Of a stretch of DNA of 22,551 nt, positions 1-21,358 are shown piece by piece. Where the stretch lies: positions 1 through 22,551 of IMG/VR virus record IMGVR_UViG_3300030406_006292, one strand, 5' to 3'. Position numbers and translations under genes: made by a program. Positions within the stretch are counted from its first letter, which is position 1; the number at the start of each line of letters is the position of its first letter. This DNA comes from a virus. The notes below the pieces were generated by a model. The model did no database searches and was not told the DNA's origin. It saw only the letters and a list, made by a program, of their open reading frames with translations.

Positions 1-244
1 TTCCACGAAAACTTTGATCTGCAAGAACTTTTAGAGCATTATCTAAAAATCCTGAAGGAATTGTATTATGTGCTTCTACCGTTACACTAGAAGCCGCAAT
101 AACGCCAGGAACTGCTGTTGGAACTGCTAAATTATATGCTTCGATTTTAGTAACATCATCAGTAAGATTAATAGAGATTTGGTCTCCAGTCGCAGTAATC
201 TCTGACACACTTTCAGTTACATCAATAGTTGTTTGTGCAGGCAT
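1..244 (-). CDS. Partial phage appendage/structural protein of unknown function
   Basis: A frame that starts with ATG at 244 and stays open for 81 codons to the left edge, so the C-terminus is missing. Its ATG shares one base with the TAA of the preceding gene (TAATG), which indicates translational coupling. The visible product begins MPAQTTIDVTESVSEI and is rich in Thr, Val, Ile and Ala, with alternating hydrophobic residues that suggest beta structure. There is no signal peptide or membrane segment. I do not recognise a family. Its place downstream of the J-type tip protein and an Ig-like protein suggests a tail-fibre or virion appendage component; this is inference from context only. It is probably transcribed from the promoter at 636-664. 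Confidence 0.75.
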   Translation of the reverse strand, partial: MPAQTTIDVTESVSEITATGDQISINLTDDVTKIEAYNLAVPTAVPGVIAASSVTVEAHNTIPSGFLDNALKVLADQSFRG

Positions 245-615
245 TATCGAGTTACCTCAGGGTTGATTGTAGCAGTTCCTTGAATGATTCTTTTTACAAT
301 TGCATCTGCATTTGTAAAGATTTCAATATCATATACATACTGTCCGGCCGCAATATCTTTGCTACCATTTCGTGCTGTGCCTCCTGAGTCCGTCCAGTTT
401 CCATTTGGTAGTTCAACTTTAAGAGCGCCCCCGGTCGGATTAGTAACTGTAACTTTAAAATAGCCTGCAATTGTAGTAGAAGTATGAGACGTGCGCAGTT
501 GTCCACGACCTGAGTAGTTTGCCAGATTCAATGCTGAAGAGTTTTCTTTGATAACCAAGTCAACAGCAAAGTCGGATCCTTGGTCAATGAATAAGTTGTA
601 AGTAGCTGCGCTCAT
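244..615 (-). CDS. Small Ig-like tail appendage protein (BppU N-domain-like)
   Basis: A complete 123-aa gene with ATG at 615. GGAG lies 8 nt upstream, which supports this start. The N-terminus (YNLFIDQGSDFAVDLVIK, then a NLANYSGRGQLR segment) resembles the small phage proteins that begin Y-N-hydrophobic-hydrophobic-QG-x-D/T-F and adopt an immunoglobulin-like beta sandwich, found next to baseplate or fibre genes. The second half has a typical GQYVYDIEI strand and ends in a GTATINPEVTR segment. Such proteins are thought to attach or decorate tail-tip fibres. It is the first gene after a strong promoter and its stop overlaps the start of the next gene. The family assignment comes from recalled sequence patterns, so the exact role is uncertain. 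Confidence 0.8.
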   Translation of the reverse strand: MSAATYNLFIDQGSDFAVDLVIKENSSALNLANYSGRGQLRTSHTSTTIAGYFKVTVTNPTGGALKVELPNGNWTDSGGTARNGSKDIAAGQYVYDIEIFTNADAIVKRIIQGTATINPEVTR

Positions 616-682
616 TTAAAGTTCTCCATGATGAAATTATAACAAAGGGGACATTTTATGTCAAGTGTTATTTTTTTGGTGG
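616..682. other. Intergenic gap between J and the appendage genes
   Basis: This 67-bp gap holds the promoter at 636-664 and the ribosome-binding site of the appendage gene. I see no intrinsic terminator hairpin after the J stop codon, so read-through from J is expected in addition to initiation here. Confidence 0.7.
636..664 (-). promoter_or_regulatory. Perfect sigma70-type promoter upstream of the appendage genes
   Basis: On the minus strand TTGACA (664-659) is followed by exactly 17 bases and then TATAAT (641-636). The -10 is preceded by TGT, making it an extended -10 (TGn). An A-rich block with AAAAATAA lies just upstream (668-675), like an UP element. Transcription would start near 629, leaving about a 14-nt leader before the ATG at 615. 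A 13-bp inverted repeat, GACAT-TTT-ATGTC (650-662), overlaps the -35. This promoter would express the appendage genes independently of the J gene. Confidence 0.88.
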
Positions 683-3600
683 TTATGTTAGCTTTCCAAG
701 TATTACTCTATCTTGTGAACCATCATTAATTACAATTCTTTGATTACTGCCACTGAGAGTGACAGAGCCCGTTCCGCTTCCAACAGTTAAAGAAGAGCTC
801 ATACTGCTTGATTGACCTATAACTATTCCTCCTGAAAATTGGCCTACACCATTTGAATCTACTCTAAAAGCTTTTGTAGCTATAACTCCATTGGTTAAGT
901 TAAAATAACTGCCAGTACTAGTAAAGTCACTACCATCTGCAGTAAAACTTGTGCTGTTATTTACTGCTACTCCATTAGATTTTATAATACCAGTTGTTAT
1001 ATTACCGCCATCGATTGTTGTAATAGTACTTCCGCCAGTAGAAAAATCTCCATTTGCAAAAGTAACAAGTCCTGTAAAACTTGTTCCTTCTGTTACATTA
1101 CCAAAACTTAAACCAGAACCTTCATCGGAGTAATTTAGTAAAGTCCCACTATTGTTGGTTGATTCGACCGCAGTATATTTTGAGTAATAAATAACATTAT
1201 TTGTACTATTAAAAGTAGGTGGATTTTCACTCCAATTCGAATTTATAGTTGTAAATCCTGGAGTTCCGCTAAAGCTATACCGAGCAACTACTCCAAACCC
1301 AGGCCCTACACTATTTTGTACAGAGTATACATATCCAGTGGCAATTTTAGGTGGAGTTACTCCTGAGTCGATACTAGTAAATGTTTGAACTTTATTTATT
1401 GGGCCAAAAGCAGTTCCATCAGCAGTTTGCCCTCTAATTATAAGAGTTCTTGTTCCAGTAGTAGCAGTAAAGCCGCTTAGATCAGCAACAGGATTACTAG
1501 TAGAGCGTACGCCCCCAGAAGCCAAATTGTTAGCTGATGCAACACCAGTGCTTACCGAAATACCTATATTAAACTCTCCTGCAGCTAAGTTAGCTGTAGT
1601 CTTATTTGCAAAAGTAAGAGGCGTTGTTCCTTCAAGAACTGTAATAGTTGCTTGAGTATCGGAAAGGTCATTATCTGTAATAGTTACATTATCATTATCT
1701 AGTAATACAACAACAGGATTTGTACCTTTTTTTGATTTAGCAATACTTTGTCTTGTTATTACCTCTGCATTGCCCTCTTTAGTTCCAACAACTATAGTCC
1801 ATGTAAATGTTTCAACATCGTCGCCGAAGAATTGAGTATTTCCAGTACCGCTTGTATTTGCAGGTAGAGTTGCATCTGCAATAGTAACAACCTCATTGGC
1901 TTCGCCTGTAATATTTCCTACAGTAAAAGGACTATTACTAGATTTAGCAACACTTTTAATATACCAAGTGCCTCTTGCTAGAGTTGGATTGCCTGTTGAT
2001 GTTGCATGGCCAAATGCTGCTCCTGAAGTTTTTCCAACATATGTTCCTACTTGACCTCCTAAAAATACTTCTAAAGTTGTTCCCGATCCTGTAAGAGTTC
2101 TAGGGAAGTTTCCAGACCCAAAACTTCCATCGGCTTCTGTGGTTATAGAGTGTGCAAAATTTGAATTTGAAATTGAAATTCCACTCTCTCCTTCTTCTAC
2201 AAAAACGATAGAGATACTGTCAGTAGCAAGTACTGTGCTTCCTCCAGATTCTTGTACTTCAACTTCTATAGTTGCGCTATTTGCAGAGCCTCTAGTACTA
2301 GGAACTACAAATTCAGCAGTTGAAGTAGTTGAAAAAGCTGATTGGAGAGGAGTGCCATTAACACTAAATCTAAATTCAGGATTTGCAGCAAAATTTCTAG
2401 CAGTTGCAGTTAGTGTTATAGCGCTACCACTTGAAGCAGTACCACTATGACTAGGGGTTGTTCCTCCAGGTTTATACACTACCGAGTAGTCTTCTGCTGT
2501 TAACTCTACTGTTCTTCCTTGAGTACCTTCGGCTCCATCTTTTACTCGAATGATATCAGTTGTTCCAAAAGCATTTAATCCAACATTATTCTTCTCTCGA
2601 ACCTCAATTTTTATAGGTAGAGCAACTCCAGTACCATAAGCAAGAGCACTAGAATTATGCAGTGTAAATGTTTTGGTAAACTCACCCGAAGCAGGATCAG
2701 AAAATCCTTGATTTTCTAAAGATTCATCTGTTTGATTAAACTCATCTGAAGTAGCTGAGTCTACTTTAAACTGTGGTTCGTTAAATCCAATTGCTGTTGC
2801 AGTTACTTGTATATTACTAAATGTAGTCTCTTGTACTTGAGTACCAGCAGAGTTTGTATCGTATTGAATAACATCCGGAGTTGCTTCTAAAGCTACGAAC
2901 TTTCCTTGAGCTAAATTATCGCTTAAACTAATAAATTTATCTACTGCAAAGTTATTAGCTCCATTTGAAAATGAACTCCATCTAACTCTACCAAATACTG
3001 CATCATCTCTATAATCTGGTCGATATGCAGCTTTGTAAATAGTTCCGGAAAATGCTGCAGGGAAACTTCGATCTAGAATAACTTCTTTAATAGAACTACC
3101 ATCATCTTCATAGATAACAGCAGTAACTTTAGCTGCTTGAGCGTCTACTTTTCTAAACCATCCTCCATTAGTGAAGGTTCCGGTAATAGTTGAGTTGGTA
3201 ACTGCAACTGATACAGCTTCATCTGTATATAACGTTACTTGTGTATTTGAACTTTTTTCTACAAAGAAAGTTTTATTATTTAGCTGAGTTGCACCTCCAA
3301 CCTCTTCGACAATGATTTTATCGCCGGTAACTAAATTATGATCGCTTGAACAACTTAAAGTGACTGCGGCACTGGAACTTGCAACTGCTGATACATAGTT
3401 TGCCTGTAACTTATTTGGATTTTCAAAAAGAAAAATATCTCGAAGAGCGCAGGTAAAAGCGGTTCCACCTTTTGTAAGTCTAGTAGAATTAGCTGCGACC
3501 GTCCAACCACTACTCTGATTAACCCAAACAGAGTTAGTATTTTGACTTGTACCTCTCCATCCCTCTGAAGGTATTTTTCTGTAAAATGGAAGATTTTTTA

Positions 3601-6600
3601 AACTATCAGTATCCCATACAGCTAAACCTGTGCCTCCATCAAATAGTAACCAATACCATGTGGGAGTCTGTCTAAGAGTTTCTCTATTTGTAGCTGCTCC
3701 TATACCTTCTACACTTATACTAGATAAACTAACTGCAACTGAAGAAGCTTGATCAAGAGTATTTCCTATAGAAAAACCTGCTGCTGAATTTCCTGCAAAT
3801 CTTATAGCTTCATTTAAACCACTTGAAGCTGCGAGGTCTAAAGAATAGTTAAAAGTAGAACTTGAAATTATACCTTTTGGTAACCCTCCAACAATTCTTG
3901 GAACATTTGCACCATATTGATCTGAGACATCATATTTTGTAGAAATAAAATCAGAATAATTTTGTTTTCTCGAAACAGTTCGAACTCTAAAAGTATACAG
4001 ATTGTCTTCAAGTGCTTCAAATCTGTGCGATAATTTATCTGTTACAATTGGAGAGTCTATATGTGGAACGGTATGGTGTAACTCAAAACCATCCAAGAAA
4101 GAATATTCTCGTTTCCTAGTAGTAGGCGGTGTATTACTATCTGTAAAAGTTTCTTGAGGAACTGTCCAAGATATTGTTAATTCTTCGCCAGGTTTTGAAG
4201 AATCACTATCAATCGCTACATAAAGCTGTTCTGGCGGAGGCACAAACTCATCTTCATCTTCAATAGTAGGAAAAACATTTGTTGGAGTAGTTCCTAGAGC
4301 ATAGTCTAAGTCAACTGCATCAAACTTTTCATTAAAATGCTCTACTGCACTTATTTGAAAAGTATTTTTCTCATCTGAAGGAGCAATTCCTAAAACTTTA
4401 TACTCTTTCTTTGAGCCTAAAATTTGTACTTCGTCATTGTCTTCCGCTTGTAATGCCCATACAGTGCCCGGTACAGGTCTTTCTGCTATTTCATAGTTTG
4501 TACTTTTACTTAAATCAACATTTGCTCGTGTAAAAGTTTCACCACTAATTGTAATATCTTCAACTGTAACAGTTTTAGTAACAACATAAGTGTACTCTTT
4601 CCATTCTAAAGGTAGGGGAGCACTATTATATCGAGTTCCCCCCGCTACATTGTCTCCTTCGCTATTTAAAGGCCCGTTAGTTTCTTCAAAAACAGTGAAT
4701 GCATTAGTAACCGCTTTTTCTGCATTTTCTGTGCTAAGGGCATAAATATTTGATACGGGATCTAAGTCAAAGGTGGCAGGATCATCAGGAGTTGTATCAG
4801 CATTCCAAAATTTTGCTGTAAATCTATCTCCTCTATTAAAAAGAGTTCCCCCGCTAGTAACTTTATAGCCATTTGTATCAATTCGTATAGGATCTAAACC
4901 TGTATAAAAAGCCGCAAACCTAGTTACAATCGTACTTAGCTCATATTTATTAACACCGCTTAAAGCCGTAATTTTTCTGTCAAAAATTACTCTATTTGGA
5001 GAACCTGCATCTATTGATTTTACTACACCACTAAAATCAACTCCATATCTATCTCTGTCTTGTACATTTATAATATCTCCAGGACGTATAAACGCACCCT
5101 GCATTCCAGTTCTAAAACTTACAACTTCTTTTTGATTTTGTGCAGTAAAAAGCTTCCATCTTCCATATCTATATGCTTGGCCTTCGGAAGTAGCTCCCAT
5201 GGCGACTGCTTTTTGAGAAATAATTTTTTTAGTTTTTACAATATTTTCTCTATCTTCAACAATTAAAGGCACTTGCTCATAGTTAGCATTAGGATCATTC
5301 CAACTTACAACTACTTGATTAGATCGAGTTTTTCTTCCAGAGCTTTCATAATTAAAAGTTCCATCTATAACATTTGCTTTTGAAAAAGTATATACAGGAT
5401 CTGAAGGAACATCTTGAACAGGAGTTACTTTACCGTCTAACCAGTATAACATACCTGTAAAGACTGTTGCCATATCTTTAAGAACTTTGTATACTTCGGC
5501 AGATTTAGACAAATATAGATTAGCACGAAATCTTGGTTCAAACCCACCTTTTCCATCAGGTACTAATTCATCACAATACTTTGCAATTCTGTAAAGTGCA
5601 AATTTATTTACTAGATTGCGATCAATCCATTCTCCTGCACCATATCTATTATTTGTTACAATATCATAAAATACCCAAGCAGGATTATCTGTATAAAAAA
5701 GCTGATGAGTGCCATCTATATCTTTTTTAAACTCTCCATTCCAAAATGCTTCATATTTTGCAACTCCATCATCAGAATATTCTCTAGGAGTATATGCTGT
5801 AGGTATTCTAACTTTTAAACCTTGAAGTAAATAACTACGACTAGGAAGGCTACCAAATGTTCTCGATGAGAAAGTAATTCCAGCATGGGCTGTAAAAGGG
5901 TAAATAAATTTATCTTTTATAGTTGCTTTTAAGTCGGCTCCACTTAAACTTGATGAAGCTTGAAGTGTCCATTTTTTCTTTTCATCGTTTGTTATTGGTC
6001 TACCACCTGTTGTACCATTAGTCCAAACAGGTAATCCTAAATCTCGAGTCAATCGAATAATACGAATTCTAAAGTCATCAAAAGGTTTAAAACGATTTAA
6101 TCCAATTGTGTGATCAAAGGAGACACCAGCAGTGGTTTTATCAGTATGTACTACTCTTCCTCCGTTCTGGCTAAATAAAGTTTGGTAGTCTCCAAAGTTT
6201 GTTTCTCCAGGTCCTTTTATTGCAATTTGAAATACATAGATAGCGCTTGCGGCCTCTTTATCACCACCTTCATTATTATGAGTTATAAGAGCAGGATAGT
6301 TAATTCGAATTCCGAGTTCGTCTACTTGTTTTTTCTGTGCAGCATTCAATCCAAAGTGTGGTCCAGTAGCAGCGCTAGAGGGAATTACTATAGGAGCAGC
6401 TCTATTATCCGCAAAAGTTTGATCCTCTGGGTAACCATTAGTAGTGTATAAAGGAAATCCAAATGCGGTAGTAGTAGAAATAGGATCTGTACTAGAATCA
6501 AAACTTTGCTTTAATGCAACACCGCCGCCCTGTCCAGTTATAGTTACACCGCCAGATAAACTATTCACTTGCTCTAGAGGAGCTTGATCTAATGTGCCAC

Positions 6601-7312
6601 GTCTAAATTGTACTGTAGATCCATCAAACTTAGAAACAGTTCCATTTAAATCATCGATAGTTGAACTAATTGTTCTGGTTTCTTCTATAAAAAATGGTGC
6701 ATTTGAAAGGTTGGTTGCAAAACTGCTATCAACTACTATAGTAGTATCATTAGTTCTAGAAACAATTTTGACCGTTTTTATTCGCTGAATAGTCCACGAA
6801 CCCATTGTTTGATACTGATTTGCAAGTTGACTAACATTAGAGTGAAGAAGTAGTGTATTAGTATTTCCATCATACGCGGAACCATCTGCTACTAGTTCTG
6901 CGCCTCCGGGGCGTACACAACGTAAGTAAGTTGAAGTAGTTGCTACAGTATTAAAGTCAGTGCTTAAACCGGCTCCTGTTGCACTCATAAAGCTTGCATT
7001 AACAGGAAAACCAATCGGTTGAACGGTTATAGTTATATTAGATACTTCTTCTACAACAACATGAATAAACTTTCCAATATCATCATCGGTTATTGTTATA
7101 TTTGATACTGTAACAGTAGTGCCGGAAGAAGAGAGCGTAGGTGCTCCAAAAGTACCATTCACCGTTTCATTCATAGTGCCTACGACAGTTGATTTTTCAA
7201 AAGGAATATTATTTATGTATACAGAAGCTTTGCCATCTACCAAACCTTGAATAGGCCCTTCGCAAAGCATATCTGTTATACCTATAAATTGTTTTGAAGC
7301 TCCAAATGACAT
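683..7312 (-). CDS. J: J-type tail tip / host specificity protein (2209 aa)
   Basis: Central tail-tip protein that forms the end of the tail and contacts the host receptor. ATG at 7312 with GGAAGG about 9 nt upstream, 6 nt after the I gene stop. Residues 8-36 match the gpJ N-terminus (FIGITDMLCEGPIQGLVDG). Residues 505-800 carry the conserved gpJ core: YEAFWNGEF, NPAWVFYDIVTNNRYGAG, ALYRIAKYCDELVPDG, WNDPNANYE, and ATSEGQAYRYGRW before a RPGDII segment. A VWAL module lies near 950, an FN3-like domain near 1026-1120, an E1-FCCH-like beta domain near 1305-1392, and Ig-like repeats near 1590-1980. The C-terminus (2080-2209) is a Gly/Ser/Thr-rich fibre end with GNITTGIIKSNG. It is about twice the length of lambda J (1132 aa). 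A segment of about 185 residues (40-225) interrupts the N-terminal domain relative to lambda. The receptor is unknown. Confidence 0.95.
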   Translation of the reverse strand: MSFGASKQFIGITDMLCEGPIQGLVDGKASVYINNIPFEKSTVVGTMNETVNGTFGAPTLSSSGTTVTVSNITITDDDIGKFIHVVVEEVSNITITVQPIGFPVNASFMSATGAGLSTDFNTVATTSTYLRCVRPGGAELVADGSAYDGNTNTLLLHSNVSQLANQYQTMGSWTIQRIKTVKIVSRTNDTTIVVDSSFATNLSNAPFFIEETRTISSTIDDLNGTVSKFDGSTVQFRRGTLDQAPLEQVNSLSGGVTITGQGGGVALKQSFDSSTDPISTTTAFGFPLYTTNGYPEDQTFADNRAAPIVIPSSAATGPHFGLNAAQKKQVDELGIRINYPALITHNNEGGDKEAASAIYVFQIAIKGPGETNFGDYQTLFSQNGGRVVHTDKTTAGVSFDHTIGLNRFKPFDDFRIRIIRLTRDLGLPVWTNGTTGGRPITNDEKKKWTLQASSSLSGADLKATIKDKFIYPFTAHAGITFSSRTFGSLPSRSYLLQGLKVRIPTAYTPREYSDDGVAKYEAFWNGEFKKDIDGTHQLFYTDNPAWVFYDIVTNNRYGAGEWIDRNLVNKFALYRIAKYCDELVPDGKGGFEPRFRANLYLSKSAEVYKVLKDMATVFTGMLYWLDGKVTPVQDVPSDPVYTFSKANVIDGTFNYESSGRKTRSNQVVVSWNDPNANYEQVPLIVEDRENIVKTKKIISQKAVAMGATSEGQAYRYGRWKLFTAQNQKEVVSFRTGMQGAFIRPGDIINVQDRDRYGVDFSGVVKSIDAGSPNRVIFDRKITALSGVNKYELSTIVTRFAAFYTGLDPIRIDTNGYKVTSGGTLFNRGDRFTAKFWNADTTPDDPATFDLDPVSNIYALSTENAEKAVTNAFTVFEETNGPLNSEGDNVAGGTRYNSAPLPLEWKEYTYVVTKTVTVEDITISGETFTRANVDLSKSTNYEIAERPVPGTVWALQAEDNDEVQILGSKKEYKVLGIAPSDEKNTFQISAVEHFNEKFDAVDLDYALGTTPTNVFPTIEDEDEFVPPPEQLYVAIDSDSSKPGEELTISWTVPQETFTDSNTPPTTRKREYSFLDGFELHHTVPHIDSPIVTDKLSHRFEALEDNLYTFRVRTVSRKQNYSDFISTKYDVSDQYGANVPRIVGGLPKGIISSSTFNYSLDLAASSGLNEAIRFAGNSAAGFSIGNTLDQASSVAVSLSSISVEGIGAATNRETLRQTPTWYWLLFDGGTGLAVWDTDSLKNLPFYRKIPSEGWRGTSQNTNSVWVNQSSGWTVAANSTRLTKGGTAFTCALRDIFLFENPNKLQANYVSAVASSSAAVTLSCSSDHNLVTGDKIIVEEVGGATQLNNKTFFVEKSSNTQVTLYTDEAVSVAVTNSTITGTFTNGGWFRKVDAQAAKVTAVIYEDDGSSIKEVILDRSFPAAFSGTIYKAAYRPDYRDDAVFGRVRWSSFSNGANNFAVDKFISLSDNLAQGKFVALEATPDVIQYDTNSAGTQVQETTFSNIQVTATAIGFNEPQFKVDSATSDEFNQTDESLENQGFSDPASGEFTKTFTLHNSSALAYGTGVALPIKIEVREKNNVGLNAFGTTDIIRVKDGAEGTQGRTVELTAEDYSVVYKPGGTTPSHSGTASSGSAITLTATARNFAANPEFRFSVNGTPLQSAFSTTSTAEFVVPSTRGSANSATIEVEVQESGGSTVLATDSISIVFVEEGESGISISNSNFAHSITTEADGSFGSGNFPRTLTGSGTTLEVFLGGQVGTYVGKTSGAAFGHATSTGNPTLARGTWYIKSVAKSSNSPFTVGNITGEANEVVTIADATLPANTSGTGNTQFFGDDVETFTWTIVVGTKEGNAEVITRQSIAKSKKGTNPVVVLLDNDNVTITDNDLSDTQATITVLEGTTPLTFANKTTANLAAGEFNIGISVSTGVASANNLASGGVRSTSNPVADLSGFTATTGTRTLIIRGQTADGTAFGPINKVQTFTSIDSGVTPPKIATGYVYSVQNSVGPGFGVVARYSFSGTPGFTTINSNWSENPPTFNSTNNVIYYSKYTAVESTNNSGTLLNYSDEGSGLSFGNVTEGTSFTGLVTFANGDFSTGGSTITTIDGGNITTGIIKSNGVAVNNSTSFTADGSDFTSTGSYFNLTNGVIATKAFRVDSNGVGQFSGGIVIGQSSSMSSSLTVGSGTGSVTLSGSNQRIVINDGSQDRVILGKLT
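3138..3400 (-). other. FCCH-like beta domain inside J (residues about 1305-1392)
   Basis: Within J, the segment with DHNLVTGDKIIVEEVGG followed by TQLNNKTFFVEKSSNTQVTL has the H/N-x-L/F-x-x-GD-x-hydrophobic...V-x-G-x-x-x-LN-x-x-x-F-x-V pattern of the ubiquitin-activating-enzyme FCCH-like fold that recurs in phage tail proteins. It is probably a structural spacer or carbohydrate-contacting domain; the role is inferred. Confidence 0.6.
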
Positions 7313-7318
7313 TATAAA

Positions 7319-8053: not shown

Positions 8054-8729
8054 AACGATATATTCCTACTAAATGCTCTGCCCAGAAAGGATATAAATTT
8101 TCTCGGCAAGATAATCTATTTTCTGCATGATGATAAAAAACATCATTTCCTAAAAATACTCCACAATGATTTGCAGTATTTGATCTAACTTTAAATATTA
8201 AAACATCATTTTTTTCGGGCGTATCAACTTTTTTATGCTTCCAATTTTTTATATTTTCTTCTGTAAAATAATCTAAATTATTCTTCCACCAGTTATCTTC
8301 AAAAGGCTCTCGTGGAGGAATATTTATATTTTCTTTAGCTAGCCAGTCTCTCATAGCTTCAAAACAATCTGTAATTCCAAACTTATAGTCTCTTCCGATA
8401 AGAGGATATGCCCGTTTTTTTGGCTCTACTATATTTAACTCCATAGTAGGATAGCTAAAAATATAGTATGGAATACCTAGAGCATTGCAGCAATCAATAT
8501 CATGTTGAGAGGGCTCATTAGACTCATCTGGATGGCTGTGAACAATAGCAAAAATATCTGCCCGCCTTTTTATATCTAAGTATTCTGTTGAAGATAAAAT
8601 GAAGTTTTCTTCTCCTCTTGCAAGATTTGTGCAAGGAAACCACTGTTTTTTACCTTTTACAATTCCTATTACTCCGCATCCCTCTCTAGGATACTCTTGT
8701 TCAAAATGCTTTTCTATTTCGTCTATCAC
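8043..8729 (-). CDS. K: Tail tip peptidase K: JAMM metalloprotease plus NlpC/P60
   Basis: A 228-aa two-domain tail-tip protein. The N-terminal Mov34/JAMM domain has Glu16 in YPREGCGVIG and the zinc motif HSHP...D (His64, His66, Asp77; H-x-H-x10-D). The C-terminal NlpC/P60 cysteine peptidase domain has the nucleophile Cys122 in GITDCFEAMRDWL and His188 in ANHCGVFLG, with further His at 200 and 201. NlpC/P60 domains cleave peptidoglycan peptides, and in tails they are thought to open the cell wall during DNA entry; the JAMM domain may process a tail protein. The start is GTG at 8729, overlapping the L stop as GTGA. All key residues appear intact in both domains. Confidence 0.95.
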   Translation of the reverse strand: MIDEIEKHFEQEYPREGCGVIGIVKGKKQWFPCTNLARGEENFILSSTEYLDIKRRADIFAIVHSHPDESNEPSQHDIDCCNALGIPYYIFSYPTMELNIVEPKKRAYPLIGRDYKFGITDCFEAMRDWLAKENINIPPREPFEDNWWKNNLDYFTEENIKNWKHKKVDTPEKNDVLIFKVRSNTANHCGVFLGNDVFYHHAENRLSCRENLYPFWAEHLVGIYRYVA

Positions 8730-9919
8730 TTAAATTTCTTCGAGCCTGGGAAGCCCCCAAAAGGTAAAGGAACTGCACTATCTAAAGTATCATCACTCGC
8801 ATTTCCTTGGAATCTTATTTTGCAAGAAGTTAAACTTTTTCCACATAAATCAATTCTTTTCCAATATTTTCTATGGTGTCTAGGATCCTTGTCTGTATTG
8901 TCAAACAAAGCTTCCCATATCTGTACTTGATTAGAAATTTCTTGTGCTACTCCAGTTCCAGAGCCCGCAGCTGTTGCTCTAAAAATTGTGTTTGCATTAT
9001 CATTATTAGAACCTATAGAGGTAAAACCAGTTCCGCTAACAATTTTATAAAGCTGACCTATAATAAAGTTTCCTGCAGAGACGTTTGGCCCTGTTGTTTC
9101 TGTAGTTTTAACAATACTCGCAGCTGCAGTCGTAGTTGCTGCAGTATAACTTGTAGTATCATTCCATGTAGTTATACTAGCATTAGGAATTCTTGTATTA
9201 TCACTGCGAAAAAAAGAGTGTTGTTCAGAGTCTGTATATCTCCAAGTGCATCCACCTCCAAAACCTAACTCTCTTCCTTGGTACTGCCAAGGACAGTACT
9301 GCCCGATTACATTTCTTGCAGGAATTTTTGCTCTTTCAACATCCATTGGAGAGGCAAGTTCAAAAATTACAAAAATATTACTTTCAGACGCTATTCTATC
9401 TATATAATAAACTTGTGGAGGAAATTCATTAGGAGTTGCAGAATTAGTATTACAGTCAGATAAAAAAGCCTGTCTATAAACTACTTTAGTTCCAATAAGA
9501 TCATCATTAGTTTCAAACTCAGCATTTAAGGTTCCGTCAATAGAAGTGCCGCGTATTGACGGATCTCGAATATTGTGTAAAGTTATTTCTTTATTGTCTA
9601 TAGTTTTGGATAATACTGGAATATTTGCAATGGTAAGTGTTGGCCTTGCAATAGCACCGGAAGATGCAACTTCTATTCCCGTTATTTGAATAGGTATTGC
9701 ACTATAATTATTTTGACGAAACTCAATTTGAGTAGTTCCTTCATCATCTAATCCGGAAAATAAAAAATAGTTACCATTCCCTGTGCCTGGGTCATAGCCA
9801 GGAAGAGTAATGTCAAATAGCTCAACAAAACTATCTAATACCTCATGAGAATTTGTATAAGTATCAGTTAGCGTTGTAGTTATCTGAGGTTGCTGTACCT
9901 TATCTACTGTATCTGTCAC
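8726..9919 (-). CDS. L: Minor tail protein L with iron-sulfur-type cysteines
   Basis: A 397-aa tail-tip protein longer than lambda gpL (232 aa). After an N-terminal beta-rich domain (about 30-200, with ITLHNIRDPSIRGTSIDG), it carries four cysteines in the gpL pattern: Cys209 and Cys224 in GQYCPWQYQGRELGFGGGC, and Cys359 and Cys366 in DLCGKSLTSCKIRF. In lambda these ligate an iron-sulfur cluster. Between the pairs, residues about 232-350 contain an extra domain with GQLYKIVSGTGFTSIG and a GSGTGVAQE end, a beta module seen in other phage structural proteins. The C-terminus is PLPFGGFPG. GTG start at 9919 overlaps the M stop as GTGA, and the stop overlaps the K start in the same way. Confidence 0.92.
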   Translation of the reverse strand: MTDTVDKVQQPQITTTLTDTYTNSHEVLDSFVELFDITLPGYDPGTGNGNYFLFSGLDDEGTTQIEFRQNNYSAIPIQITGIEVASSGAIARPTLTIANIPVLSKTIDNKEITLHNIRDPSIRGTSIDGTLNAEFETNDDLIGTKVVYRQAFLSDCNTNSATPNEFPPQVYYIDRIASESNIFVIFELASPMDVERAKIPARNVIGQYCPWQYQGRELGFGGGCTWRYTDSEQHSFFRSDNTRIPNASITTWNDTTSYTAATTTAAASIVKTTETTGPNVSAGNFIIGQLYKIVSGTGFTSIGSNNDNANTIFRATAAGSGTGVAQEISNQVQIWEALFDNTDKDPRHHRKYWKRIDLCGKSLTSCKIRFQGNASDDTLDSAVPLPFGGFPGSKKFK

Positions 9920-10314
9920 GGCTCAAAAACTCTTTTTAAAGTTGCTGAAAGGGTATGTATCTCAGAATTAATATATGTTATATTGTATTGATCGCAAACT
10001 ACTTTAATTGTATTATCGGACTCATTGTGCTCAGTAACTACAAGACTAAATTTTGAACCTGACTGCCTGTCAAAAAAAGCAGCTAATTTATTTACTTCTG
10101 CTCTTGATCTATTACCAAACTTTACGTTAAAAATTTCATCAGTAGGATTTATACCGGCTTTGACTCTTTGAGAGTAACCGTCTCCAAATTGAGCAGTAAG
10201 AACTCGTTGTGTTACTCTACGCGTAGCACCCCTATCCAAAGGTATATCTTCACTTGCACTAGGATTTGTACCATCGTATCCACCTTGAGGAACCACTATT
10301 TTATAAACTGCCAT
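9916..10314 (-). CDS. M: Minor tail protein M (distal tail, lambda gpM-like)
   Basis: A 132-aa distal tail protein. It has the family hallmark QFGDGYSQRVKAGINP (residues 42-57), which corresponds to RFGDGYSQRAPAGLN in lambda gpM, then a FDRQSGSKFSLVV strand and a C-terminal TLSATLKRVFEP strand resembling the FSAEFEQV end of gpM. These small proteins form the ring joining the tail tube to the tip and fold similarly to tube proteins. Its ATG at 10314 shares one base with the tape-measure TAA (TAATG), and its TGA overlaps the GTG of L. Length is close to the family (109 aa in lambda). Confidence 0.94.
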   Translation of the reverse strand: MAVYKIVVPQGGYDGTNPSASEDIPLDRGATRRVTQRVLTAQFGDGYSQRVKAGINPTDEIFNVKFGNRSRAEVNKLAAFFDRQSGSKFSLVVTEHNESDNTIKVVCDQYNITYINSEIHTLSATLKRVFEP

Positions 10315-13300: not shown

Positions 13301-14189
13301 CAAAGAAAGTAAGAGCAGCAGTCAAAGCAATTTTATTTGTTGCAAAAAAGTCAATAACTGGCCCTAAAATATTATTTGAAAAAACAATTATTTCTTTACT
13401 TAAATTATTAAAAGAAGCAGCTAATTTGTCATAAGGACTCGGATCTACTGCCTCTGAAATTTGTTGATATTTATTTAAACCCTGAGTTATTGTAGCATTC
13501 ACAAAAGCTTGAACTTTTTCAAACTGAGTAAGTTCAGTAGTAAGTTTTCCAATACTAGTAGCAAAGTCAGATGCTGCTTGATCTAATCGTACAATAATAC
13601 CTAATTCATCTAGAATTTCTGGTTCGAGTTTTGCAGTACCACGAATCAAGCGATCAATAGCATCGCCCATATCTCTTCCAAGAGCTAATGATGCACCTTT
13701 TGCTACTTCTGCTAATTGAAGAATTTGTGTGCTAGAAAATCCTGCGGAAGTACCTACAGAAACCGCACGTAGTGATTGTTCAGTAGAAATTGCTTGATCA
13801 GCTACAGTTCTTAAATCGGCTGCTAATGCTCCTAGATTTCTACCGGATAAAGCACCAATTCTCTCCAAACTGGTTTCTAACCTTTCTAATGCTGCCGCTC
13901 TTTTAAGCACTCCGAAAGCTGCTGAAACTGCAAAAACGTTAGCAGCAAAAGTTGCATAAACAGGTACAAGACCTCCTACAACTCCTGCTTGTTTAGAGAA
14001 TGCTTTTGTAGAGTTAGAAGTGGCTTGTGCAGAGCCTTGCATGGCTCTATAGCCTTTACGGGTGGAGGCATTTAAGCCATCTTGACTAGCTTTTGTTTCA
14101 TCCAGGGCTTTCTTTAGCTTCTTAGCAGAAAGCGTTGCTTTCTGCATTTTACCATTGACTTCAATATCAATTGTAACTTTTTTTGCCAT
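10314..14189 (-). CDS. Tail tape measure protein (1291 aa)
   Basis: Sets tail length and is released into the host envelope on infection. The length is typical, and at roughly 0.15 nm per residue it predicts a tail of about 190 nm (inference). There are hydrophobic, membrane-like segments near residues 69-95, 280-305 and 500-522. A long Glu/Lys/Arg/Ala-rich helical region with coiled-coil character spans roughly 560-1110. The C-terminal 190 residues resemble the lambda gpH tail: FASLIDGTKSAKEAFKDMA near 1116 and the YPAILHGTEAVVPLPNGKE block near 1207-1225. ATG at 14189 overlaps the chaperone stop (TAATG), the usual place directly after the G/GT pair. No lytic domain is visible. Confidence 0.95.
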   Translation of the reverse strand: MAKKVTIDIEVNGKMQKATLSAKKLKKALDETKASQDGLNASTRKGYRAMQGSAQATSNSTKAFSKQAGVVGGLVPVYATFAANVFAVSAAFGVLKRAAALERLETSLERIGALSGRNLGALAADLRTVADQAISTEQSLRAVSVGTSAGFSSTQILQLAEVAKGASLALGRDMGDAIDRLIRGTAKLEPEILDELGIIVRLDQAASDFATSIGKLTTELTQFEKVQAFVNATITQGLNKYQQISEAVDPSPYDKLAASFNNLSKEIIVFSNNILGPVIDFFATNKIALTAALTFFAGTLVNQVIPAIDDVIARNAAIATSAAAAARKGRTKVVGEFEKQAKQIKVLDFSPPIAKQLIPQIKAGEASTKDLKRAILSLRKSEAARLAYQKANATTVSAKYKAETAAIIEQRKALEGLATAERGRETFTATGRNAASASRSAKRNAIYGQAIDNAGFIDSLGIAARGVKNQAKEVGRSADVHGKFAAVVRTASTSVSLFGRALLNAIPIIGQILFVIGLVAPAFQKAFESSAVKKSIEESDERFKIFAKTIQLVRETAEDAGSAIELFANQSRASTGIFDELAASYVRLGKAIDEEYIAKLKEAQEAEVRAQRLTGQASRNRGRDTKRAQANQQEALDSIGTVQQDQAIELLTSAQLRLAGMGDVLPGVQQGFQTLEADIKSMGESGTINIIDIIQRIKEISTPFENFTGNVKGAIQQFANLNAEITKLGGRQVTPFSNALEQSLELEKSVKAVMSGFLEQNPGTTAAKTNIEDLEEVFPGTIDLAHQLEDALKLDRGTIESASELTNAQEVFNKQLVKNNEILIEKNGVLKNQQAVLSELSRLEKIGAGFTELRLKQEDKVIDAKIDALTAEKTNNELLLEGAEEKERIRGIDAEITALTRSKKTNEERTLAVLEAEGAQKKRLLDVEQKLSDLAAKRAQQEFARQRVEDSRTLREERQSNPFAFLTEDRRSLDLEIDRTEKLLAKQIDELDDRKRIARELAELEFEVLAARLAAEASIARTRAAAVVADNPNDPSVAAAAAKLEGLATKLFELSGKVAEQATEAGAAAEAEVEQKVDELKEKLEGLKEARANLEDVNVLIDGTARSLESNMTNAFASLIDGTKSAKEAFKDMAKAILADIARMIAKQLVLNMLIAATGGQGGFFANLLGRDGAVFEKDPNMRYGGVAEKVQQFTGGGIAKGRQAGYPAILHGTEAVVPLPNGKEIPVEMRNGSEQQNNVVVNVNIDSGGAVTQETEGQGLDLGTTIANVVQQELLNQKRQGGILNPNGVA

Positions 14190-14626
14190 TAGCCCTGTAC
14201 ATTATGGGTGTACGTTTTACCACCCCCTGCAGAAGATTTTGCTTTTCGTTCTTCTGCTTTTCTTTTTCGCTCCGCTTCTTGTAGTCTGTGCGCTACTAAA
14301 ATATTTTCCCACATTTTCATATAGAAATATGTTGTGGCAGGATCTGGTATACCATATATTTTAAAAATGTAATCTATACCTTCCCAGTGCTTTCCTAAAT
14401 AGGAACCACTCATACCTTCCCATCTATCTGTAAGTAATGAAAACACAAAAAATGCCACTTGAACTTCTTCGGGAAAATCCGAAAGCTCTAGCGGCATTTT
14501 GGCGGGATCGGGATCTTGTCCTAGCTGATCACATATTTGTAGATATTTTTCAACATCTATGTTTGAATCAGCTTCTTTTGCAAACCGTTCAAGTAGCTTT
14601 TCAACTTCCGCTACTTGCTGCTGGTA
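14189..14626 (-). CDS. Chaperone -1 frame extension (gpT-like part of the G-T fusion)
   Basis: A frame open from just after a TGA at 14633-14635 down to TAA at 14189, overlapping the end of the short chaperone. Read from the slip site it adds 145 residues (starting YQQQVAEVEKLLERFAKEA) to the first 137 residues of the short form, giving a 282-aa fusion. An ATG at 14497 could be mistaken for a start of a separate 102-aa gene, but the 43 codons upstream of it are protein-like and helical, there is no convincing ribosome-binding site, and the position matches lambda T, which is made only as GT. The T domain is thought to recruit tube protein to the tape-measure complex. It ends in a Lys/Arg/Glu-rich helix. 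Confidence 0.9.
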   Translation of the reverse strand, partial: YQQQVAEVEKLLERFAKEADSNIDVEKYLQICDQLGQDPDPAKMPLELSDFPEEVQVAFFVFSLLTDRWEGMSGSYLGKHWEGIDYIFKIYGIPDPATTYFYMKMWENILVAHRLQEAERKRKAEERKAKSSAGGGKTYTHNVQG

Positions 14627-14632
14627 AAATTT
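14590..14632 (-). promoter_or_regulatory. Programmed -1 ribosomal frameshift signal
   Basis: On the minus strand the heptamer A AAT TTT (14632-14626) sits in the correct phase, with zero-frame codons AAT TTT. It fits X XXY YYZ. After 8 nt a perfect 8-bp stem follows: CAAGTAGC (14617-14610), a 12-nt loop, and GCTACTTG (14597-14590). The zero-frame TAG lies in the 5' arm of the stem. The -1 frame has a TGA at 14633-14635, so slippage can only occur in the window of about 20 nt that contains the heptamer. Confidence 0.92.
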
Positions 14633-15036
14633 TCAAGATCACCGACTACTTCTGTAACCCAAGAATCAAAATGTGTAGAGTTCTTCATGAGAAGCTCTGC
14701 ATTTTCTTCTGTATAGGGCAGCTCATCCTCAGGATCAAGTTCAGAAATATCCACCAAAAGAAACTCTTCTAGGTAGCGATATTTAAGTCCCTTCCATCCT
14801 TTTATTACATCCTTACAATATTCTGTAAGAAATTTATCTTCGTCTAAGATTTCTTCTGGCTGTCTTGTTTTTCGATCAAACTTTGTACTTACGCACTTTT
14901 TTCTTAGCTTTAAAAGAGCATCTCTTGCTAAGTAGCATAAATCAATTTTTAGTCCTGTATATCCAGGAAAGTCTAAAGTTACCGTTTTACTAGGAGTCAT
15001 CAAACTCGCAAGAGAAACTGATTTTTTATCTGTCAT
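14611..15036 (-). CDS. Tail assembly chaperone, short form (gpG-like)
   Basis: A 141-aa protein from ATG at 15036 to TAG at 14611. It starts MTDKKSVSLASLMTPS and has conserved features of N-terminal tail assembly chaperones: an alpha-helical body, DVIKGWKGLKYRYLE, then LPYTEENAELLMKNS and a FDSWV...DLENF end. It sits directly before the tape measure and is the first gene after a strong promoter, exactly as gpG of lambda-like phages. These proteins coat the tape measure during assembly and are absent from the finished virion. Most ribosomes should stop at the TAG. A minority should slip at 14626-14632 and continue in the -1 frame to give the 282-aa long form. Confidence 0.92.
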   Translation of the reverse strand: MTDKKSVSLASLMTPSKTVTLDFPGYTGLKIDLCYLARDALLKLRKKCVSTKFDRKTRQPEEILDEDKFLTEYCKDVIKGWKGLKYRYLEEFLLVDISELDPEDELPYTEENAELLMKNSTHFDSWVTEVVGDLENFTSSK

Positions 15037-15082: not shown

Positions 15083-15111
15083 ATTATATCTAAGGTCAGC
15101 TGATATGTCAA
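15083..15111 (-). promoter_or_regulatory. Perfect sigma70-type promoter before the chaperone/tape-measure unit
   Basis: TTGACA (15111-15106), a 17-base spacer and TATAAT (15088-15083) on the minus strand. The A-rich AAAAATAA (15115-15122) is placed exactly as in the promoter at 636-664. Transcription would start near 15076, leaving about a 40-nt leader with AAGGA and CAGG upstream of the ATG at 15036. An 8-bp palindrome TCAGCTGA (15096-15103) lies in the spacer. It restarts transcription directly after the terminator at 15136-15160. Confidence 0.9.
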
Positions 15112-15135
15112 GAATTATTTTTATCACCTGGAACG

Positions 15136-15160
15136 AAAAAACCCGCCGAAGCGGGTTTTT
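15136..15160 (-). terminator. Intrinsic terminator after the tail tube gene (cUUCGg loop)
   Basis: A perfect 10-bp inverted repeat, AAAAACCCGC and GCGGGTTTTT, with a 4-base loop that reads TTCG on the minus strand and is closed by C-G: the very stable cUUCGg tetraloop. A run of six T follows on the minus strand. It begins 14 nt after the tail tube stop. The A/T arms could also terminate plus-strand transcripts. Confidence 0.93.
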
Positions 15161-15173
15161 AAGTCGTACAAAA

Positions 15174-16838
15174 TTATACGTCGTATAGTTGTTGATTTGC
15201 AGTTGTGGTATCACCAAAGTAGGTAAGCACCAGTTCATCTGCTTTATCAAAGTCATTAGTATACGCACCAAATCCAGTTTCAAGTGAAATAACATCTTCA
15301 ACTGAGTGTACGGGAACGTCAATGTGCACTCTTGGCATACTTACATAGAGTCGCGGATCTCCGTCTGTCGCACCACCAATCTGGAAAGTGACTCCGAAGT
15401 CGTTTACAACTTTATCCAGACCTTTTCCAGAAGTTGTCATATCATTGAAAAGATCAACAGAACTTCCTTTATTTACTCCGTCAGTATCAAGAGTTAGATA
15501 GCAATTAAAGTTACCTGTAACTGTTCTACCACCGGTTACACCCTCAATTGGAATATTTACGTTACCCAGTTCTTCTGGAACAAGATAAGTAATATTATTT
15601 GAAATTGTAATATTTCCACCAATAAGAGTTAAATAGTAGTCAAGAGACGGGAAAGCTGTCGAATCAGTAGTTGAAACAATAAGCTGAGTCAAACGATTTC
15701 GAATAAAGTTAGTAGTTGTATCAACACCTGCACCGATGGCTCGTGCTGCTGCACCAGTATCACCTGCAGTAGTAACGAGATAGAATCTCATATCATCACC
15801 AGTGTTGAGAATAACATCTCCCACAGAAGGATTAGTAGTGTTTACTGAATCAGCATTTGCTGCAGTTACAGCGGCTCTGTGATCATCGCCTGTAGCAAAA
15901 GCAGCAGTACCAACTGTATATACACTGCCTGCAGACTGCATATCTACAATATTCTTTGCAAATCCTGACCAGTTAATTGTTGCAATACCATCAACTTCGA
16001 AGTCGATAGAGGCTTCATTAAGTTGAACATTTTGCAGCTTATAAACCATAGGGCTGTCAGTGCTTGTTTCCATTACAAAGTACAAATTACAAGTTGCGAG
16101 TACCGCACGATTTGACTGTCCAAAGTTGATTGTTTGAGAAGCCGGGGTAGGCATAGCTACAACTTCATCAAACTTTGAATTTGTGTCTACATTATTTGTT
16201 CGGAAAAATGCAGTTGGACTCCCAGAATCTATTGTGCCAGTCGTAACTGTAATAGTTCCTGTACCATCTCCAATCATTGAAGCAGGAATTATAAAAGTTT
16301 TACCTGTAGTATATCCTTCACCAGCACTAACTACTCTTGCTGCGGAGGCAGTTCCTGCGGCATTTACTTCTATTTGAAGAGTAACTCCTTCCCCATCATG
16401 AGTTCCAGTAACCAAAGCATCATCAGTGTCAATAATATAAGTTCCTGTAGTTCTATCTGTAGCACTATCAGTTGCAAGAGTAACTGTTTGAACAGCGCCT
16501 TGAGAAGATACTGTACCATATGTATCAGCACCTGCCATTACAGCCCAAAGAGCTTCTTCTACTGCGTGGTGCTCAGTGCCACCATCACTTGCTGAGGTCG
16601 TATAAAAAGGACGGACATAAGTACTAAAAGAAAACTCTGCCGGAGCAAGAGAATCTGTAAAGAGTCGTCGACCTCGACGGCTAATTCCATCTGCACCCTG
16701 CATTTCTGACAAAGTGATATCAGATGTATTAGTAGACTGTGAGAAACTAAATCCATCTAGTATAGGGATTTCCCACATTTTACTATTAAACTCCATGTAG
16801 AGTTTCGAGTCTCTACTAAAGTATAGTTGTTGTGCCAT
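15174..16838 (-). CDS. Major tail tube protein with inserted beta domain (554 aa)
   Basis: Subunit of the tail tube. ATG at 16838 with AGGAG 7 nt upstream. The N-terminus (MAQQLYFSRDSKLYMEF, then IPILDGFSFSQSTNTSDITL and ADGISRRGRRLFTDSLAPAE at 49-68) and the C-terminal strands are of the kind seen in siphophage tube proteins of marine phages, and the position between tail terminator and chaperones fits. It is much longer than typical tube proteins (150-250 aa). Residues about 115-205 look like an inserted Gly/Thr-rich beta domain (SAGEGYTTGKTFIIPASMIG, then GDGTGTITVTT), a module common in phage virion proteins and likely exposed on the tail surface. Its own terminator and higher GC than its neighbours fit high expression. 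The family call rests on pattern and context. Confidence 0.85.
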   Translation of the reverse strand: MAQQLYFSRDSKLYMEFNSKMWEIPILDGFSFSQSTNTSDITLSEMQGADGISRRGRRLFTDSLAPAEFSFSTYVRPFYTTSASDGGTEHHAVEEALWAVMAGADTYGTVSSQGAVQTVTLATDSATDRTTGTYIIDTDDALVTGTHDGEGVTLQIEVNAAGTASAARVVSAGEGYTTGKTFIIPASMIGDGTGTITVTTGTIDSGSPTAFFRTNNVDTNSKFDEVVAMPTPASQTINFGQSNRAVLATCNLYFVMETSTDSPMVYKLQNVQLNEASIDFEVDGIATINWSGFAKNIVDMQSAGSVYTVGTAAFATGDDHRAAVTAANADSVNTTNPSVGDVILNTGDDMRFYLVTTAGDTGAAARAIGAGVDTTTNFIRNRLTQLIVSTTDSTAFPSLDYYLTLIGGNITISNNITYLVPEELGNVNIPIEGVTGGRTVTGNFNCYLTLDTDGVNKGSSVDLFNDMTTSGKGLDKVVNDFGVTFQIGGATDGDPRLYVSMPRVHIDVPVHSVEDVISLETGFGAYTNDFDKADELVLTYFGDTTTANQQLYDV

Positions 16839-19262: not shown

Positions 19263-19290
19263 AAAAACTTGGGGCGGCGTACCGCCCCAG
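19263..19290 (-). terminator. Intrinsic terminator after the major capsid gene
   Basis: GGGGCGG and CCGCCCC (19271-19288) form a perfect 7-bp GC stem with a 4-base loop (TACG on the minus strand), extended by a T-A pair, and followed on the minus strand by AAG and five T (19267-19263). The capsid stop is 40 nt upstream. It should end most capsid mRNA and reduce read-through into the neck genes. Confidence 0.88.
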
Positions 19291-19293
19291 GCC

Positions 19294-19340
19294 AACTAGA
19301 AGAAGTATTTCTTCCAGTTTAAACTCTATCTTACTGGAAG
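19294..19340 (-). repeat. Overlapping alternative hairpins at the capsid mRNA 3' end
   Basis: Two inverted repeats share one arm. The first pairs CTTCCAGT (19311-19318) with ACTGGAAG (19333-19340), spanning the capsid stop codon. The second pairs AACTAGAAGAA (19294-19304) with TTCTTCCAGTT (19309-19319), with one mismatch and a 4-nt loop. Both cannot form at once. They lie just before the terminator at 19263-19290. Confidence 0.6.
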
Positions 19341-20752
19341 GGCCAGCGGATAGAAGGCTTGTTAGCGCCAGAATTAGCAACCAACTCATTAAAGCCAAGA
19401 GACTGAGTTGCGACCAGTACGGTACGCTGCTCTTTGACGATGTAGTCGGTTTCTACGTTGACACCACGGAGACGCGGAGCCACATAGTTCGGCATATAAA
19501 CAGCCAGAGCTGCAGTCGTAGTTGCTGCACCAGCAGCACCAAGGTTCTGAGCCAGTTGATCAGTAGCGATCACGGGTGAACCGAAGACCGTACCAACCAT
19601 ACCGGTGAGTTTGGTTGCCAGATCGGAACCAACTTCAGTAACGTCGGTGAAGCCAGAAGCATCAATCAGCTCGTAATAGCAATCAGTCGGTACGATATAC
19701 GCGACTTGAGAAGCCTCGAGACCATACTTGCCCATTTCCTTACGCATTGCGAGAAGGTTAGCAGGAGTAACTTCGTCAGTACCAGAAGCATCCAGGGCAG
19801 TCTGAGCAGATGCAGTAGCATAACCGTTAGTGTCGTCAGTACCAGAAGCACCTACGAGACCAGTGGTGTAGCCGCCAGAGTTACCAACAAGGATGGCCTT
19901 GTCGATAGCGATAGCGTGTGCACGAGCCAGAGCTGAAGTAATCATAGGCAGTACTGAAAGAACGATTTGCTCGTCCGTGTCGTTCGTGATGAACGTACTA
20001 GAAATCAGTCGATGCGCTTGCAAGATTACCTGATTGATGTTATAGTTGTTGTCACTTGCGCCAGCCTCTTCGAGGTTGTTAGCAGCAACATCCGCACCCG
20101 TAGCAGCCCAGTTTGCAGGCTCAGTATCGGGAGCGATCGGCAGTACAGTAGCGCCAGAAGTAACATTGATCTCTCGGAAGAGAGGAGCAATCTTCTGTGC
20201 TTGACGTACTTCTTCTTCAAACTGGGTTGATACGACAACGTCGATACCAGCTGAAGTAGTAGCCGTGTAAGTAATTTCTGCCTTCTCAAGCAGGTCACGA
20301 CCATAGTCAGTGTCCCAACCCTTACGAGTAATTTTGCCGAGAATGTGAGCAGAGAGGAGATCCTTAGCGATGGGCTTCAGATCACCGGGAGCCTTACGGC
20401 CAGAGAAGTCACGCTTGCTGTTACGCATGGCTTCGAGTTCAGCAGACTTCTCTTCAAGATCAGTCTTGTACTTGTTAAGAATTTCAGTAGTATCCGCTTC
20501 CTTAGCTTCAAACTCTTTCTGCAGATCAGCCATCAGGCGCTCAGCACCAGACTCAACGCCTACTTTGATAGCAGACTGAACTTCTTCTTCTTGAGCAGCT
20601 TTAGCCATTTCGGCCTCTTCTGCTTCCTTACGAGCAGCTTCAGCAGCTGCTTTTTCTTCGGCCTGCTTCATTGCAATCTTAGCAGCAGTTTCCTCTGCTA
20701 CTTTCTTAGCAAAAGCATCCAGGTCGATTTCGGGAGTTTGTACTTCCGACAT
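19331..20752 (-). CDS. Major capsid protein from nested internal start (473 aa)
   Basis: Within the 675-codon frame, ATG at 20752 (residue 203, MSEVQTPEIDLDAFAKK) is preceded by AAAAGGAG with 6 nt spacing, the best ribosome-binding site in this region. From here on the GC content and codon choice change sharply. The product would be scaffold domain (first 110 residues) plus HK97-fold capsid shell, 473 aa, somewhat longer than the 385-aa HK97 gp5 precursor because of its long helical delta domain. This start would give hundreds of capsid subunits per virion without equal amounts of protease. Whether it is used is inferred from sequence alone. Confidence 0.8.
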   Translation of the reverse strand: MSEVQTPEIDLDAFAKKVAEETAAKIAMKQAEEKAAAEAARKEAEEAEMAKAAQEEEVQSAIKVGVESGAERLMADLQKEFEAKEADTTEILNKYKTDLEEKSAELEAMRNSKRDFSGRKAPGDLKPIAKDLLSAHILGKITRKGWDTDYGRDLLEKAEITYTATTSAGIDVVVSTQFEEEVRQAQKIAPLFREINVTSGATVLPIAPDTEPANWAATGADVAANNLEEAGASDNNYNINQVILQAHRLISSTFITNDTDEQIVLSVLPMITSALARAHAIAIDKAILVGNSGGYTTGLVGASGTDDTNGYATASAQTALDASGTDEVTPANLLAMRKEMGKYGLEASQVAYIVPTDCYYELIDASGFTDVTEVGSDLATKLTGMVGTVFGSPVIATDQLAQNLGAAGAATTTAALAVYMPNYVAPRLRGVNVETDYIVKEQRTVLVATQSLGFNELVANSGANKPSIRWPFQ

Positions 20753-21358
20753 TTTCATCTCCTTTTGGGCTTTTGTAACCCCGTCCGGTGTGTCACTAGC
20801 TACCGATGAATTTTCATCCTTAGCCAGAGACTGACCGGCTAGATCTACACTATTTTTGAAAGTTTTCTTAAAATCTTCATATTCTTCCATAGAATCAAAA
20901 GACTTTGAGAGCGAGAAAGTTGCTGCTTGATTGCAAGGTACCGATACAACTGATACTTCAAACAACTCAGCATCCTTTATCTTTAATCCGTCAGTTTCCT
21001 CCAGGTAATCAGCATCCTTGACTCGAAAACCGACGGAGAAAGCTCCAAGGATACCTTCTTTAACTAGTTCTGCTACATGATCGGGAGCAGACTTAGAAAT
21101 TTTTGCTTTAAGCTCAAGACCGTTATCATTAACTTTTAGTCCTGTAGCTCTGCCAATAGGCTTATTATAATCATGATTGAATAAAATAATTGGATTCTTT
21201 TCAAAGTTTGAAAGACCACCTTTTGTCCATGCTTCGGCTGCAATTACATCACCAGCACGGTCAGTATCGTGAGTACTGGCCATTCCACAGATGTGGACGC
21301 CGCCATCGTCCTCTTCAAAAGCTTTGAAAGTAGAAGTAAGATTAAATATCTTTTCCAT
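19331..21358 (-). CDS. Prohead protease-scaffold-major capsid fusion protein (675 aa)
   Basis: A single uninterrupted frame. Residues 1-150 are an HK97-gp4-type prohead protease (U35/S78): GMASTHDTDRAGDVI, His62 in ILFNHDYNKPIGRA, Ser108 in LGAFSVGFRVKD and the ELFEVSVVSVP strand (131-141). Residues 150-202 are a polar linker. Residues 212-312 form an Ala/Glu/Lys-rich coiled coil, the delta-type scaffold domain, which the protease would remove after assembly. From about 325 onward is the HK97-fold capsid protein, with AIAIDKAILVGNSGG and a C-terminal VAPRLRGVNVETDYIVKEQR segment. ATG at 21358 has AGGA 7 nt upstream and overlaps the preceding gene by 17 bases. No stop codon or frameshift separates protease from capsid, unlike HK97, where they are separate genes. 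The fused form would carry the protease into the procapsid (inference). Confidence 0.93.
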   Translation of the reverse strand: MEKIFNLTSTFKAFEEDDGGVHICGMASTHDTDRAGDVIAAEAWTKGGLSNFEKNPIILFNHDYNKPIGRATGLKVNDNGLELKAKISKSAPDHVAELVKEGILGAFSVGFRVKDADYLEETDGLKIKDAELFEVSVVSVPCNQAATFSLSKSFDSMEEYEDFKKTFKNSVDLAGQSLAKDENSSVASDTPDGVTKAQKEMKMSEVQTPEIDLDAFAKKVAEETAAKIAMKQAEEKAAAEAARKEAEEAEMAKAAQEEEVQSAIKVGVESGAERLMADLQKEFEAKEADTTEILNKYKTDLEEKSAELEAMRNSKRDFSGRKAPGDLKPIAKDLLSAHILGKITRKGWDTDYGRDLLEKAEITYTATTSAGIDVVVSTQFEEEVRQAQKIAPLFREINVTSGATVLPIAPDTEPANWAATGADVAANNLEEAGASDNNYNINQVILQAHRLISSTFITNDTDEQIVLSVLPMITSALARAHAIAIDKAILVGNSGGYTTGLVGASGTDDTNGYATASAQTALDASGTDEVTPANLLAMRKEMGKYGLEASQVAYIVPTDCYYELIDASGFTDVTEVGSDLATKLTGMVGTVFGSPVIATDQLAQNLGAAGAATTTAALAVYMPNYVAPRLRGVNVETDYIVKEQRTVLVATQSLGFNELVANSGANKPSIRWPFQ
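20752..20766 (-). promoter_or_regulatory. Internal ribosome-binding site for the nested capsid start
   Basis: AAAAGGAG (20766-20759) lies 6 nt before ATG at 20752 on the minus strand. A nearer in-frame ATG at 20758 directly abuts the GGAG and is too close to be used. The site decides the probable start of the separate capsid protein. Confidence 0.75.

Follow-up and report, generated by a model that had tools for sequence, protein, structure and literature searches.

Conserved sigma70-type promoters with a shared upstream A-tract among the structural genes of an uncultured T5-like phage lineage

The window, meaning the whole stretch of DNA analysed here, is a 22,551-base fragment record from a virus (IMG/VR record IMGVR_UViG_3300030406_006292) with a GC content of 38%; further members of the promoter family were sought in the records of relatives. 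The 16 genes taken from the ORF list of the window are on the minus strand. They encode a cut portal, a protease-capsid fusion, connectors, a T5-type major tail protein, chaperones, a tape measure, a tail tip, and a fibre-assembly-like protein. The head maturation protease and the major capsid protein are apparently fused in one 675-aa ORF (19331-21358); a single protease-capsid ORF is also present in the relatives G001 and G004, whereas T5 has two genes. Two tail-chaperone ORFs lie about 113 nt apart (14189-15036), and in many siphoviruses such ORFs are joined by a programmed frameshift. The tail tip (683-10314, minus strand) is of the lambda type (M, L, K, I, and J-like) within a T5-like genome, at the place where T5 has pb3/pb4. 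The features around two intergenic sites, A and B, are listed in the direction of transcription.

15174..16838, minus strand: T5-type major tail protein gene, the last gene of the unit ahead of promoter A
15136..15160, minus strand: intrinsic terminator, a UUCG hairpin with a T run (-16.4 kcal/mol, z -3.44)
15115..15122, minus strand: A-tract AAAAATAA of site A, positions -46..-39, putative proximal UP-element subsite
15083..15111, minus strand: core promoter of site A, TTGACA-N17-TATAAT, with transcription predicted to start at about 15076
14611..15036, minus strand: tail assembly chaperone gene, the first gene behind promoter A
683..7312, minus strand: J-type central tail fibre gene, the last gene ahead of promoter B
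668..675, minus strand: A-tract AAAAATAA of site B, positions -46..-39, putative proximal UP-element subsite
636..664, minus strand: core promoter of site B, TTGACA-N17-TATAAT with an extended -10 TGn, predicted start at about 629
244..615, minus strand: small fibre-assembly-like gene (phrog_1084/phrog_3304), the first gene behind promoter B

The pattern AAAAATAA-N2-CTTGACATA-N15-TATAAT has exactly two matches in the window, at 636-675 and 15083-15122 on the minus strand, each with 0 mismatches. No third site was found in the window at up to three mismatches to this 40-base pattern, and reversed-pattern controls gave 0 matches. Sites A and B are also the sole window sites that match the sigma70-type hexamers (TTGACA and TATAAT at a spacing of 17 ± 1) at 12 of 12 positions, with a spacer of 17 bases in both. 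Only site B has an extended -10 TGn, which is absent from site A. The initial annotation had described a long shared motif with perfect boxes and a 17-bp spacer at both sites, and the pattern search found this to be exact. Its placement of the promoters in intergenic gaps before units was likewise borne out, with site A between the stop of the gene at 15174-16838 and the start of that at 14611-15036, and site B between the stop of the gene at 683-7312 and the start codon at 615.

In dinucleotide-preserving shuffles of the window (n = 1000), perfect TTGACA-N17-TATAAT occurred at a mean of 0.01 per window, and neither two perfect sites nor the long motif appeared in any shuffle (0/1000 for each). 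General promoter-like matches in the window do not exceed those in shuffles (30 vs 35.8 and 18 vs 24.3). Because ordinary matches show no such enrichment, sites A and B stand out. The low GC content and the same lack of general enrichment would be expected if AT-rich spacers had yielded both sites by chance, but this explanation is at odds with the shuffles, with the near-zero reversed-pattern controls, and with the presence of the sites at the same place in every scanned relative. We rejected it on the strength of the shuffle result and conservation in relatives, and regard its probability as negligible.

A search through the major tail protein found 51 relatives, of which the longest contig, G001, has 94,590 bases. 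Thirty ORFs of G001 match T5 ORFs (blastp, E ≤ 1e-3), including those for terminase, portal, DNA polymerase, primase, helicases, flap endonuclease, and a split NAD ligase. Judged by these matches and by the T5-like major tail protein of the window, the lineage is T5-like. ORF comparison with T5 found no counterpart of T5 A1/A2 in G001, which is not known to be complete. A search of six lineage records, all fragments of which none is known to be complete, likewise gave no match to T5 gp026. No tRNA was found in the 10 loci searched. Across three loci, nrdA is 54-55% identical in two alphaproteobacterial MAGs and 81% identical in one contig of a Neomarinimicrobiota MAG. The latter, L273 (PBPT01000068.1), is a 5-kb contig whose nrdA was compared with that of G001, and it may be a phage contig that was wrongly binned. 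CTTGAC, with a C at -36, is an alphaproteobacterial promoter form. A guess at the host from the C at -36 and from nrdA is a weak lead.

Site A is conserved in all scanned relatives. In 49 of 49 loci, a promoter with a 17-base spacer and 10 to 12 hexamer matches lies 56-69 nt past the stop of the major tail protein gene; the loci include near-identical ones, and one (L003) has the same major tail protein sequence as the window. The scan left out L036 and L052, in which the match ends within the gene. A C(UUCG)G hairpin with a T-rich tail precedes the -35 box in 49/49 loci, with the end of the loop 33-36 nt from the box. Among 33 distinct sequences of the terminator stem, pairs 1-7 are always paired and two-sided changes occur at pairs 3-6. 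A second terminator-like hairpin (19270-19289, minus strand) lies directly past the capsid gene and has counterparts in G001 and G004, and the T5 annotation places a putative terminator at this capsid-gene border too. Just past the transcription start at site A, ATAAAT is conserved; it resembles the late -10 box of T4. This reading was rejected, as sites B and the further sites C and D mostly lack the motif and T5 promoters carry ATAAATT at about +1..+7.

Site B is present in all 11 records that have room for it, the window included. In the window, 18 nt separate the stop of the J-type gene from the -35 box, and 20 nt separate the -10 box from the next start codon; the latter distance is 20-21 nt in six of 10 relatives and 47-50 nt in the others. 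For promoter B of the window, the predicted leader has a length of only about 14 nt, with GGAG directly past the predicted start (615-641). Two other sites were found in relatives. Site C, between the genes for large terminase and the pre-portal protein and past the window's end, has a strict match in 18 of 21 loci with room and one -10 mismatch in the remaining 3/21, with two further loci that lack room left out of the count. Site D, ahead of the small terminase gene, was found in G001, G004, and L043. G001 and G004 thus have four conserved promoter sites in the structural region, in the order D, C, A, B, which cut it into packaging, head and major tail, tail, and fibre units.

The initial annotation had considered such promoters unusual for a late module, by reference to lambda-type phages that are read from one antiterminated promoter. 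The tail-tip genes are of lambda type, but the lineage is T5-like, and T5 late genes have sigma70 promoters of their own (available part of PMC7472727; annotation of the T5 record). Lambda-type regulation from a single antiterminated late promoter was rejected, given the layout with four promoters in G001 and G004. With T5 itself built in this way, the presence of several sigma70-type promoters within the late module of a T5-like lineage is normal.

The same promoters recur throughout the lineage, as the initial annotation had anticipated in suggesting a promoter family. Exact CTTGACW-N17-TATAMT has 57 sites vs 0 in reversed controls in six long records, and allowing up to one mismatch gives 73 vs 5 in 19 records. 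In ligA loci, which were gathered independently of promoter sequence, the best 80 of 220 (852 kb) contain 321 sites vs 1 reversed control. G021 (77.7 kb) has window-like sites A and B and also sites like those ahead of both ligase genes of G001, with identities judged by likeness of promoter sequence. A DNA scan with the long motif found at least 119 stretches. Among those listed, 108 encode a protein like those of G001 or G004 and 105 encode at least two (E ≤ 1e-10 for both), although this is a loose likeness because such proteins include general phage proteins.

The upstream part of the motif has a fixed position. In profiles of 33 nonredundant sites, and of 92 from the best 80 of 220 ligA loci, AAAAATA occupies -46..-40 (with the -35 box taken to begin at -35) and there is little conservation further upstream. 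An A-tract with at least six of seven matches to AAAAATA begins exactly at -46 in 26 of the 33 sites (other offsets ≤5) and in 67 of the 92 from the best 80 of 220 ligA loci (other offsets ≤6). The proximal UP-element subsite is given as -46 to -38, with an A-tract at -44 to -41, in the accessible portions of PMC5664571 and PMC4390567, and the A-tract of the lineage falls within it. In contrast to the E. coli UP element, only the proximal half is conserved and there is no conserved A/T block at -57..-47. In constructs of PMC5664571, as far as its accessible portion describes them, a proximal half-element raised binding but hardly changed strength. T5 promoters as annotated have A at -45..-42, in a profile of 37 of 47 with the other 10 left out for a spacing other than 17 or a poor fit. 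The initial annotation had called the motif phage-specific. This did not hold up as the main reading, since the block at -46..-39 has the place and sequence type of the proximal UP subsite and annotated T5 promoters have nearly the same tract. From the position within -46..-38 and the tract in T5 promoters, we take the extra motif to be most plausibly a landing site for the alpha subunit of the host polymerase.

By their sequences, A and B are real and conserved, and they look like functional promoters of the host type in a T5-like lineage. They are very probably T5-style promoters for host RNA polymerase with its primary sigma factor, with their use, strength, start points, and timing all predicted. 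Host sigma would read TTGACA and TATAAT at their 17-bp spacing, and the A-tract AAAAATA(A) at -46..-39 is most likely a contact point for the alpha subunit's C-terminal domain. With this contact, no phage sigma factor would be required for the promoters to be strong. The terminator would close the unit that ends with the major tail protein, perhaps separating transcription of that abundant product. Transcription of the chaperones, tape measure, and tail tip through J would restart immediately at promoter A, and that of the fibre unit would restart at promoter B.

Bases outside known elements are also conserved. In the early-region set (best 80 of 220 ligA loci), C at -36 and a pyrimidine at -22 reach 96% and 93%, respectively; G at -13 is present in 60 of 85 early sites from those loci and in five of 17 late sites. 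These bases, which exceed what sigma70 and UP elements account for, raise the possibility that the A-tract, the C at -36, the pyrimidine at -22, and the discriminator are together recognized by a phage-made factor (an activator or altered sigma) and that the promoters are phage-specific. Different discriminator classes of early and late sites and the many lineage proteins without a family match are in its favor. However, the boxes are already a full sigma70 consensus, the A-tract is exactly on the subsite of the alpha C-terminal domain, and T5, a user of host sigma70 polymerase according to the available part of PMC7472727, has the same tract. Moreover, Sigma70_r2 had no match in six lineage records, with the control matched in 10 of 14 genomes. 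Pfam searches of 10 proteins of G001 and G004 found no polymerase or sigma factor; in a search with PF00940 (T7-type polymerase), the control matched nowhere. We consider a phage-made factor of this kind quite improbable.

Discriminators differ between groups of the promoters. Here, early means near ligA, and gene content rather than timing decides between early and late. In counts that left out sites with fewer than five of seven A-tract matches, positions -6/-5 are AT in 75 of 85 nonredundant sites of the early (ligase) region from the best 80 of 220 ligA loci, in none of 10 at B, C, and D, and in six of seven at site A. Fisher tests on these early sites (best 80 of 220 ligA loci) gave p = 1.8e-8 against B/C/D and 1.3e-5 against all late sites, values that are indicative only because nonredundant sites are still related by descent. 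As AT is found mostly at A and never at B/C/D, sites A and B belong to different discriminator classes. An early/late code in the discriminator fits the counts, but a simple one is opposed by site A in most clades and by PG25, a late T5 promoter whose discriminator begins with AT.

Because its discriminator is of the early type in most clades, the label of late for site A comes from gene content alone. Site A could be early or constitutive and merely located ahead of tail genes, with site B late. Its AT matches that of early-region sites and is absent from B/C/D, and ATATT at the discriminator is reported as common to the early promoters of T5 (available part of PMC7472727). Against this, site A of the G001 clade has no AT, PG25 starts with AT though called late in the same part of that paper, and the genes behind A are structural. 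We find an early or constitutive site A unlikely. Also improbable is a broader proposal, in which early and late sigma70 promoters across the lineage, with a common UP subsite and boxes, would be told apart mainly by the discriminator, via a phage factor without detectable sequence likeness to T5 gp026. Site A would then be an exception, at which tail synthesis begins before the other late units or at the same time as them.

This kind of promoter is already known. New are its layout in an uncultured lineage, with its own form of -35 box and its own promoter placement; a literature search on promoters of the lineage found no paper, which does not disprove that one exists. According to the available part of PMC7472727, it is unknown how T5 moves from early to late genes with one and the same sigma70 polymerase; that part sees the early/late difference in the discriminator, where gp026 acts weakly. 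The lineage supplies dozens of early-region sites and several late sites, of which the clearest difference found is also the discriminator, and this set makes a discriminator-swap test concrete. It also supplies a promoter signature that can be relied on when uncultured T5-like phages are annotated.

T5 (AY543070) promoters, including late PG25 and PJ5, resemble those of the lineage in 17-bp spaced sigma70 boxes and in discriminators that mostly start with AT, and the G001 sites ahead of ligA and ligB match annotated T5 promoters ahead of the same genes. The -35 box differs, as it is CTTGAC[AT] throughout the lineage and TTGCTT-like in most T5 promoters; boxes of TTGCTT/A were found at 0 sites in the best 80 of 220 ligA loci. 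Late PG25 (TTGATA) and PJ5 (TTGACA) are closer to the lineage form. PG25 lies directly behind an annotated terminator, as site A lies behind the UUCG terminator, but T5 has no promoter annotated between major tail protein and chaperone, and its late promoters are at other gene borders than those of the lineage. PG25 lies at pb3/pb4; in the lineage, site A comes earlier than this and site B later. Vibrio phage VspSw_1 (Demerecviridae, MH925094; relaxed scan of 85408-113760) has no such promoter directly past the major tail protein gene and has one past the tape measure gene, as with PG25 of T5. Its A-tract promoters just ahead of the small terminase gene and just past the large terminase gene are like sites D and C.
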